This document shows, piece after piece, positions 28,001-31,000 of a stretch of DNA of 64,000 nt. The DNA is from Scolanthus callimorphus (lineage: Eukaryota; Cnidaria; Anthozoa; Actiniaria; Edwardsiidae), in assembly GCA_033964015.1 (NCBI GenBank), contig CM066924.1, positions 10,017,077 through 10,081,076 of the forward strand. Direction: 5' to 3'. The notes under the pieces were generated by a model. That model ran no database searches. It was not told where the DNA came from and saw only the letters and a program-made list of their open reading frames with translations. A program made the position numbers and the translations under genes. Position 1 is the stretch's first letter. Every line of letters starts with the position of its first letter.

Positions 28001-31000
28001 TCGATTAAAATCATCACCACGTGACCAAAGGGCATCACATGACCACGCTAGTACTTAATCCTGCGTTCCTGCCATCTTATCATTCTGCCTTCGACCAGTT
28101 TCACATAAAGTTCGAGAGTGAAGTTTGATCGCCAGTATTGCCACTGAGTTGCAGCACCATTATTCCCTAGAAGAGCGGTCGGAGTTTTGTCATACTGTAT
28201 GCTGTACGGATCTTCATACTACAGAGAGAAAGCGAGATTTTTCCCATCCTGGAAATGTTTACCTCGAGTCTTCCGACCTTGCGAAGCAACATAAGAAAGT
28301 TAAGTTTACTGCACTACTGTTCAGTTTTACCCTGACGGTGATTTATATGCTACCTTTGTATCTAATGGTCCTACTTCCATGCCTTGCTTATACAACGCTT
28401 GTACAAGTTTATACTATATCTGTCGGTAATTTCTAGTCCATATTGCTACTCGTCCGGATTTGCATATTTCTTCATGCGTATAACACGCAGAGTTCGCTTC
28501 CCGTCGCTTTCCTTCGCCGTTTAACTTTAGTCATCTCCTGCCTGTAGTTTTCATCCCTTGTATTTTTAAAATGTTCTTCTTTCTTGCTAACTTTTACTTT
28601 GTATTTTTAGGTACCATGTGTAGTTAATATTCTCTGCCTCCCCGGATACACAGTAATAATATGAATTCAATAAACTGTACTTGTTAATTGTTCTTTGACT
28701 GCATTCTGTTTGCTTTATAACCATTATGTATCTTACATAATCTTCCAGCACTTTTTAAATCGGCCGGCTCATTTTCTACGCCGGGATGCCATCCAGCCTT
28801 ACAATTTCTAAGGTTTGGGCCGGTGTAAATTTTCTACCGGGTTGTTAGCCAGCCTCCAATTTCATCAAGGACTGGGCCGGCAATAATTTTTTATGGTGCC
28901 GGGTTCTTATCCTGCCTTAGACATTTCTAGTAAGGCTAGGACCGGTGTAATTTTTATACCGGGTTGTTAGTCAGACTTCAATTTCTTCAAAAGTCTGGGC
29001 CAGCACTAATTTTCTTGTGCCGGGTTGGTATCCAGCCTTACCAACTTCTAGTAAGGCTAGGGCCGGTGTAATTTTTATACCGGGTTGTTAGCCAGACTTA
29101 AATTTCTTCAAAAATCTGGGCCAGCACTAATTTTCTTTTGCTGGGCTGTTATCCAGCCTTAACAATTTCTATTAAGGCTAGGGCCGGTGTAATTTTTATA
29201 CCGGGTTGTTAGCCAGACTTCAATTTCTTAAAAAGTCTGGGCCAGCACTAATTTTCTTGTGCCGGGTTGTTATCCAGCCTTACCAATTTCTAGTAAGGCT
29301 AGGGCCGGTGTAATTTTTATACCGGGTTGTTAGCCAGACTTAAATTTCTTCAAAAATCTGGGCCAGCACTAATTTTCTTTTGCTGGGCTGTTATCCAGCC
29401 TTAACAATTTCTAGTAAGGCTAGGGCCGGTGGAATTTTTATACCGGGTTGTTAGACAGACTTCAATTTCTTCAAAAGTCTGGGCCAGCACTAATTTTCTT
29501 GTGCCGGGTTGTTATCCAGCCTTAAAATTTCTAGTAAGGCTAGGAGTAGTGTAACTTTTAAACCGGGTTCTGTTGACTAAAGCTTGAGCCAGCTTTGATT
29601 TTTCTATGCCGGGTTGTTTGATAAAATACAAATAAATGAAATGAAATGTTTTGAACTTGATCCTTCAAAGATATTATGAATTTAGTATTTACAGGTATGT
29701 CAATCCTATTTTCGGTCATTTCGGACTTCAGACTTGCACACCACTGGTTCTAAGATTGGGCTGACTTAAGCCGTATCTCCGTTTCGGCGGGGCTTTCTTG
29801 GTTCCAGTGGCGTGTAGGCCTGCCTTCCAACACACCAATTATATTTTCCCTTAGTACAGAAGTATACTCAGCTCCCTTTGTTCCAAAAGGCAATTACAAT
29901 TGATTGTATAACGGATTATGTCCTATATGATTATGAGCTGATTACTTATTGCAATTTGTAAGGCAGGCCTACTTACGCCACTGGACCAAGATAAGCCCGC
30001 TCTCGAGGGCCATAAGTTAGAAACCTACTTGTATGGTTACTATGAAAGTCTTGTGAAATAAAGTTTCTTGTATTGTATTATATTAAAGGAAATCATCATA
30101 TCCTCGGTAACAGTAGTAAAATCTTGTATACTTGACTGACATTTCAGTTTCTGTATGGAGATGATTATACTGTTAAGGACTGTGCACTTCTCCTCAACTT
30201 CGCATTAAAAAAATGTATGTCACAGTAAATGTATCAAAATCACACTCTTTCCACTTATCTAAAGTCGTAAGGATATTTTTGCAGGTGACAAGTCCCCGTT
30301 TCTATTTATCATTTTATTTCTCTCGGCCAAACTAGTAATAGTCCAATTTACTTGGTAGACCCGGTAAACAAACTCATTGGATATTGATACGTAATTATTA
30401 AATTTACATCGTCAATTCAAGGAGATTGGCTCAAAAAGGGGAACCCATGACGTTTTCTCTCTCCCATTTTGTATTGACTATTTGCGCTTCTCGAGGTATT
30501 TTGCGCTTATTTGAGGATAAAGCCCTGAAAATTTCGGGACAGTTGGTATAGGTACACAGCCACTTTGTTGTTAAGTACAGCCATGTTGCGTAGTTACCGG
30601 GCTTGTAGTCACGTGTTGGTACAAACTCTATAATGACAATCCTAACATTCGAGTTATTTCCCTGACACGCGCACCAACGTGATTGTTATTATTTATTTTT
30701 GTACCTCAAGACACCATTCTTCATCTGTATATCGATCCAGTTTCTAGCAGTAAAGGTGGCTATGAACTCGCTTTCAAGCTGATATTGACATTTTTTTATT
30801 TACAAAATTTTGATTCTCAACAAAATCAGCTAAAATTTGTAATTTGATAATTTAATAAATTAATTTGCGCCGGGGAGCACCCTTTACTTTTGCAAGAGGG
30901 CTTTTTCGTGGTATACTCCGATTGAATTGATATTTTGTAACAAAGCTTCATGAATTTCACGAAGGGATTGCCATTGCCACTGCAACTGGACGAACATTAA

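Follow-up and report, generated by a model that had tools for sequence, protein, structure and literature searches.

A tandem stem-loop array in Scolanthus callimorphus as the internal repeat block of a dispersed non-coding element with split direct repeats

In Scolanthus callimorphus, a tandem array of stem-loops with the appearance of a satellite forms the internal repeat block nearest the 5' end in a young family of dispersed non-coding elements, which carry split direct repeats in the order A1...B1-A2-B2. By its layout, the element would work like a DIRS-order tyrosine-recombinase retrotransposon of the Ngaro/PAT/VIPER type and is probably moved in trans by coding relatives that encode an ALOG-recombinase, a reading to which we give a probability of about 0.75. 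What the stem-loops themselves do is a separate matter, for which a signal in the leader is no likelier than a passive origin.

The array and the element that carries it

The window, that is, the whole stretch of 64,000 nucleotides analysed here, contains a tandem repeat with a period of 121 bp and 6.6 copies at 28780-29569 (TRF), which degenerate edge units stretch beyond the TRF limits to about 28762 and 29612 (Table 1). The sequence-only reading that had proposed a stem-loop array over this interval was correct: the repeat consists of 121-bp dimers of four stem-loops each, with a spacing of about 30 bp (121 bp / 4). It had also noted that base variants recur every 242 bp. This is seen in the window copy, in inner units 3 and 5, but it is not general, because the arrays measured (19 loci and the window; L025, whose array could not be delimited, was left out of the 20) hold 6, 7 or 8 dimers.

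Table 1. Coordinates of the features in the window and in a coding relative
Feature	Position	Strand	Basis
Array of 121-bp dimers, four stem-loops per dimer	28762..29612	+	TRF, unit alignment, folds
Example dimer; stem-loops 29032-29061, 29063-29083, 29092-29119, 29121-29144	29032..29144	+	sequence, fold
Window copy of the element, with an internal deletion (lacks B1 and its own 3' part)	27962..33344	+	match to 20 loci
A1, 172-bp left part of the split direct repeats	27962..28133	+	matches 33014-33185, two differences
A2	33014..33185	+	alignment with A1 and other copies
B2, right element end, about 79 bp	33266..33344	+	3'-end alignments
Deletion joint, interior ...GTAAC to A2 (TATTCTC...)	33009..33017	+	site resembles recombination site
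Frame with C-terminal part of STOML2-like host gene	25448..25822	-	Band_7_C, E 2.4e-19
Coding relative L048+L046: A1; 110-bp array; gag-like frame; RT frame; ALOG frame	A1 567-642; array 1166 to ~3850

The array occurs in at least 40 dispersed copies, with 93-100% identity, in the 597-Mb genome (40 scored of 77 candidates, the window and its local duplicate included); 38 of these are nearly whole and two span query bases 1-688. Since all 20 loci that were extended, one of them the local duplicate L028, share the flanks of the element, the description of the array as a free higher-order satellite has to be abandoned: it moves as a fixed piece of a dispersed element and, being copied along with it, needs no function of its own in order to spread. 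The regular dimers and the 242-bp recurrence of the window copy would fit a satellite, but the common flanks and the 6-8 dimers of the measured arrays refute that reading for the copies examined, and we give it practically no credence.

The element is about 6.9-7.1 kb long. Four complete copies, 6757-7074 bp as measured (C1a was measured only to its first 3' end, its true length being about 326 bp more; L031), are 97.4-99.2% identical to one another, share one 3' end sequence and contain no frame longer than 120 aa, so that the family is non-autonomous at best. The array lies at 816-1480 in the L027/L030 copy. All but one of the 20 loci (L018, where it is absent) have the 5' end, (C)TATTCTC, exactly. 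At the other extremity, full copies close with a 332-bp unit in which the first 172 bp of the element appear again (A2), followed by a unique stretch of about 81 bp and by the last 79 bp (B2). B1 equals B2 over 79 bp (L030) and A2 comes directly after B1, which gives the split direct repeats A1...B1-A2-B2 in the four complete copies. In a search for A2-B2 units (40 scored places of 172 candidates), B1 was found directly upstream in 28 of the 40. A plain LTR reading, first suggested by the 172-bp direct repeats, was dropped after the 3' alignments.

Twelve copies with both flanks, compared by eye, have TAT alone in common and carry no target duplication of the usual transposon kind; the 5' flanks prefer A at -2 (14/19) and C at -1 (13/19). 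A piggyBac MITE of the CMITE type was rejected on the same flanks, which lack a TTAA target duplication. Eight rearranged copies, with deletions in the window/L028, L018, L020, L036, L039/L043, L041 and L042 and an inversion in L040, are joined exactly where A2 starts. A C precedes the joint in every one of them, and in five TAT comes next. At the deletion joint of the window, other copies continue ...GTAACTATTGTCC. In L040, an inverted interior piece (reference 6212-5678) is joined to A2, and the flanking DNA past B2 resembles the start of A. No element sequence is present in L044 within its 540 bp upstream.

The window copy probably sits in an intron of a STOML2-like gene, as the sequence-only reading had it, a location supported by the Band_7_C match on the opposite strand. 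The upstream exons of this gene presumably lie near 49.8, 54.5 and 57.7 kb, where they were placed by eye against the protein sequence; Pfam gave no match for the short frames of these candidates. The window also contains a direct, near-identical duplication of about 40.6 kb (1 to about 10000 versus 40590 to about 50600), which takes in the element and part of the STOML2-like gene; it may be a genuine tandem duplication or else a haplotype left uncollapsed. L028 is 99.6-99.7% identical to window 23938-33614. Elsewhere, LINE-like frames at 444-2070 and 40938-42661 have one GDSL-lipase-like match (E 2.7e-07) and one endonuclease-like match (E 1.9e-05) that do not reach the Pfam cut-offs, and a 234-aa open frame at 17738-18442 looks bZIP-like by eye, a protein search having found no homologue. 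A host frame compared with solved structures gave no match. A second dispersed tandem repeat, with units of 117-128 bp and a ATGACGTCAT palindrome, occupies 21308-21681, 61825-62089 and 63045-63363, and the tandem repeats at 33531-33773 (82 bp x3) and 57176-57371 (38 bp x5) are without perfect stems of 5 bp or more.

The B1-A2 junction and the relatives that share its design

The B1-A2 junction reads GCAATGAGAATA-TTATAC-TATTCTCATTGC, two 12-bp inverted arms around a 6-bp core, written here with the right-arm T variant (many copies have G there). From its letters it looks like a recombinase site, and we take it to be similar to the XerC/D-type sites. Its central 21-mer is exact in 41 places, with none for the reversed control; L040, one of these places, is no B1-A2 junction but B2 running into flanking DNA. 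The general form of the junction has 311 matches (172 forward, 139 reverse), compared to 5 (4 and 1) for the reversed control. Among the matches listed, the arm letters change on both sides (GAGCATA/TATGCTC, GCGAATA/TATTCGC, GGGAATA/TATTCCC), and some types have mismatched arms, such as GAGGATA/TATTCTC. Recombination between this junction and look-alike sites would explain the rearrangements that join at A2.

Five relatives (L045, L046, L047, L050 and L051) were chosen by their junction letters only. One of them is coding and of the same design: L048+L046 shows, in order, A1, an array, coding frames, B1, A2 and B2. Its gag-like frame has a zinc knuckle match at E 0.39 only; the second frame matches RVT_1 and RT_RNaseH below the Pfam cut-offs; the third gives 85.4 bits for ALOG (cut-off 26.6) and a Phage_integrase match below the Pfam cut-off. 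No methyltransferase domain, which after RT/RNase H would mark a PAT or DIRS1-like element and not a Ngaro one, appears among the Pfam matches of the three frames (E up to 1), a search that a remote domain could escape. L049+L045 is built of A1, a 66-bp array (33.6 copies, two stem-loops per 66 bp), B1, A2 and B2, with no 150-aa frame. L050 has B1, A2 and B2 in a sequence that did not reach A1. In L047, neither A1 nor an identical B pair was seen, but just a weak repeat of 50 bp (82%) close to the junction.

L047 and L050 have a 123-127-bp array in common. On contig C15 its unit, judged by eye, sets in about 5.1 kb upstream of an ALOG frame. As a prediction test, a 1.2-kb stretch upstream of a coding ALOG match (L052) was chosen unseen; two 56-nt copies, 126 bp apart and 98% identical, were found at its end and recognised by eye as the L047/L050 unit. 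A further array, L047:3540-4469, resembles by eye the 117-128-bp ATGACGTCAT repeat of the window. L051, known from 4 kb only, is a GCGAATA-type junction locus with an array at 2802-3493 (54 bp x12.6), whose units end, by eye, in TGTGCATG or ATGCACAT, reverse complements of each other. The stem letters are unrelated between families.

ALOG domains have at least 150 matches in the genome (150 scored of 335 candidates), all above the cut-off and many in open frames of more than 400 aa. Among the matches listed, an ALOG frame lies 1024-1025 bp upstream of all three GAGCATA-type junctions. By eye, each of the 41 exact junctions is more than 10 kb away from all of the 150 ALOG matches listed, which counts against the DIRS-order reading of the window family.

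Folding, variation and recurrence of the stem-loops

The whole window array folds better than chance, with z = -7.2 for the + strand and -9.2 for the - strand against 40 shuffles each; for a single dimer, z is -2.7 when folded as RNA and -3.9 as DNA. A comparison of the window with Rfam gave no match at the gathering threshold. It had been proposed that the pairing is mostly kept from one stem to the next, including a two-sided change from CAC/GTG to CA/TG. The data do not bear this out: the 5' arm CCAGCAC is constant, and in the fourth hairpin the 3' arm alone varies (GTGCCGG to TTGCTGG), one pair being mended and another broken. More generally, stem changes in the window family break pairs: 75 distinct inner dimers yield 168 broken-pair cells, 38 kept one-sided changes and 2 kept two-sided ones, and show no covariation. 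The stems vary slightly more than the other sites (4.25% versus 3.36%), and the array has diverged as fast as its upstream flank, or faster. That it is no more conserved than its flanks, with no covariation, speaks against a maintained function. In addition, cells of the G-T type (60) are not commoner than those of the A-C type (80), so nothing points to a + strand RNA. The outer stem letters, CC(A/G)G...C(C/T)GG, are constant, the interior being variable. For 10 unit types, an arm-swap test returned p 0.0008, but when each of the two unit classes was taken separately 3/24 and 60/720 arrangements did as well, and the signal is thus mostly a difference between classes.

The relatives give a mixed picture. 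In L045 (26 distinct units), 7.4% of stem positions are changed as against 12.1% elsewhere, and none of 500 shuffles reaches the observed pairing or covariation score, although relatedness alone can exceed shuffles; two-sided changed pairs (2) are not unusual (266/500 shuffles). Covariation in L045 is modest. L046 shows none, its stems being changed at 6.7% versus 7.7% elsewhere (p 0.44), while its third helix taken alone has 97 of 108 cells paired, a figure equalled or passed by 23 of 500 shuffles.

Perfect-stem content per unit (minimum stem 5) was compared with 1000 dinucleotide shuffles for distinct arrays with a unit of at least 30 bp. It is significant for the window (p 0.008), L045 (0.003), L046 (0.022), the L047 127-bp array (0.037) and the L050 63-bp (0.010) and 123-bp (0.038) arrays, and not for the L047 128-bp (0.068), L051 54-bp (0.52) and L050 54-bp (1.0) arrays; the place of the 63-bp and 128-bp arrays inside elements is not settled. 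With the 127-bp arrays of L047 and L050 counted as one, 4 of 7 distinct arrays at junction loci (five loci) have significant stem-loops, compared to 2 of 16 controls (300 shuffles each; L013, which is the element's own array, left out), with a one-sided Fisher p of 0.045. The two controls that reach significance are the family at 21308 in the window and, in L030, a 38-bp array. The 127-bp array loses its significance when the minimum stem is raised to 6 (p 0.27-0.29). Single-unit MFE z-scores are mixed across arrays, and as RNA they are unremarkable for L046 and the 127-bp unit (-0.6, +0.8, -0.6). Whole arrays, at a minimum stem of 5, exceed all 60 shuffles in 7 of 7 cases tried, L051 included, repeated units not being independent of one another. 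The earlier suggestion that selection or a copying mechanism favours hairpins thus keeps limited support, which comes from the relatives: four of the seven arrays agree with it, but three lack significant stem-loops, and covariation is found, modestly, in one of the four significant arrays (L045) but not in L046.

Mechanism, alternatives and relation to known elements

The layout suggests that the element would be transcribed and then reverse transcribed by a partner, that a circle with a B-A junction would form, and that a recombinase would insert this circle at sites resembling AC|TAT. We infer that coding relatives, with an ALOG-type DNA-binding domain in their recombinase, would supply the enzymes in trans, and the same recombinase activity may have produced the rearrangements at A2. 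A DNA transposon with a tyrosine recombinase alone (Crypton-like), followed in tandem at its 3' end by a short derivative and moving with no RNA step, would account for a non-coding family that has recombinase-type features only, and the short A2-B2 unit might then be an element in its own right; we consider this very unlikely, for 28 of the 40 short units directly follow B1 and the A-B-A-B layout is also that of a coding relative with a reverse transcriptase. HINEs of the Helentron group have central repeats and inverted subterminal repeats (PMC4067079, PMC7492417), and they resemble the window family in being non-autonomous with a short satellite-like array. Helentrons insert between T and T and have a right subterminal repeat 38-60 bp from the end and a 3' palindrome, a description that the window family does not fit: its ends, target and repeat layout differ, with insertion at TAT, a right inverted arm that stands 9 nt from the 3' end, and split direct repeats as terminal repeats. 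That candidate was rejected, and hardly any weight is left to it.

The DIRS-order reading leaves the stem-loops themselves to be explained. They may do nothing, tandem duplication having amplified palindromic seeds while template-switch (quasi-palindrome) correction perfected some stems. We put this somewhat below an even chance: neither the window family nor L046 shows covariation or stem constraint, the array diverges no more slowly than its upstream flank, three of seven junction-locus arrays have no significant stem-loops and two of 16 controls do. It accounts less well for the stem-loops of four unrelated arrays, in excess of controls, and for L045, where stems changed less than other sites and paired cells outnumber those of all 500 shuffles. 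As a role for the stem-loops our own choice, a guess that we still hold to be on the unlikely side, is that of a multivalent cis-acting signal by which the leader RNA would bind the partner's proteins or be packaged. The stems could also be dyad-symmetric binding sites in double-stranded DNA, for the ALOG domain of the recombinase or a host factor, and not RNA structures. Constant outer letters around a varying interior in the window family, the lack of a G-T preference and the regular spacing of about 30 bp per stem-loop (four in 121 bp, two in the 66 bp of L045) would suit such sites, but the stem letters are unrelated between families, and long, variable loops are unusual for dyad sites; on balance, this strikes us as rather improbable. 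Hairpins may be maintained across families. Tentatively, and with the odds against it, one may even envisage a clade of ALOG/YR retrotransposons with a tandem stem-loop leader upstream of the genes, its shape kept and its sequence wholly turned over between families.

Ngaro, PAT and VIPER have the layout A1...B1-A2-B2 (PMC9210276, PMC4157794, PMC6681497). The Ngaro/PAT-type elements (PMC9210276, PMC4157794) have the same split direct repeats and no long target duplication; the window family differs in being non-coding and in its tandem stem-loop array near A1. SIRE, the non-autonomous counterpart of VIPER in T. cruzi, consists of A2, a unique stretch and B2 (PMC6681497), and the short 3' unit described here is built alike (172 + about 81 + 79 bp); the accessible text mentions no tandem array in VIPER/SIRE, and host and letters are different. 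ALOG-bearing DIRS1-like retroposons were described in Nematostella and Acropora (PMC3537659), and L046 likewise combines ALOG, a phage-integrase-type recombinase and a reverse transcriptase; the accessible text of that paper contains neither 'tandem repeat' nor 'inverted repeat' and does not describe leader arrays. The CMITE elements of corals (PMC2872659) are also non-coding and can join in tandem, but at about 100 bp, with TTAA target duplications and of piggyBac type, they are unlike the window family. The literature searched, which takes in few subscription journals and was partly accessible, reports no tandem stem-loop leaders for DIRS-order elements.

The family illustrates that what looks like a satellite can turn out to be part of a retrotransposon. 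Its junctions, together with rearrangements that join exactly at A2, offer a rare genomic view of the sites of a eukaryotic recombinase. To our knowledge, the question of how RNA is recognised and copied in the DIRS order has no settled answer; a stem-loop leader that recurs in coding and non-coding families would, if true, be a concrete candidate signal for this recognition.
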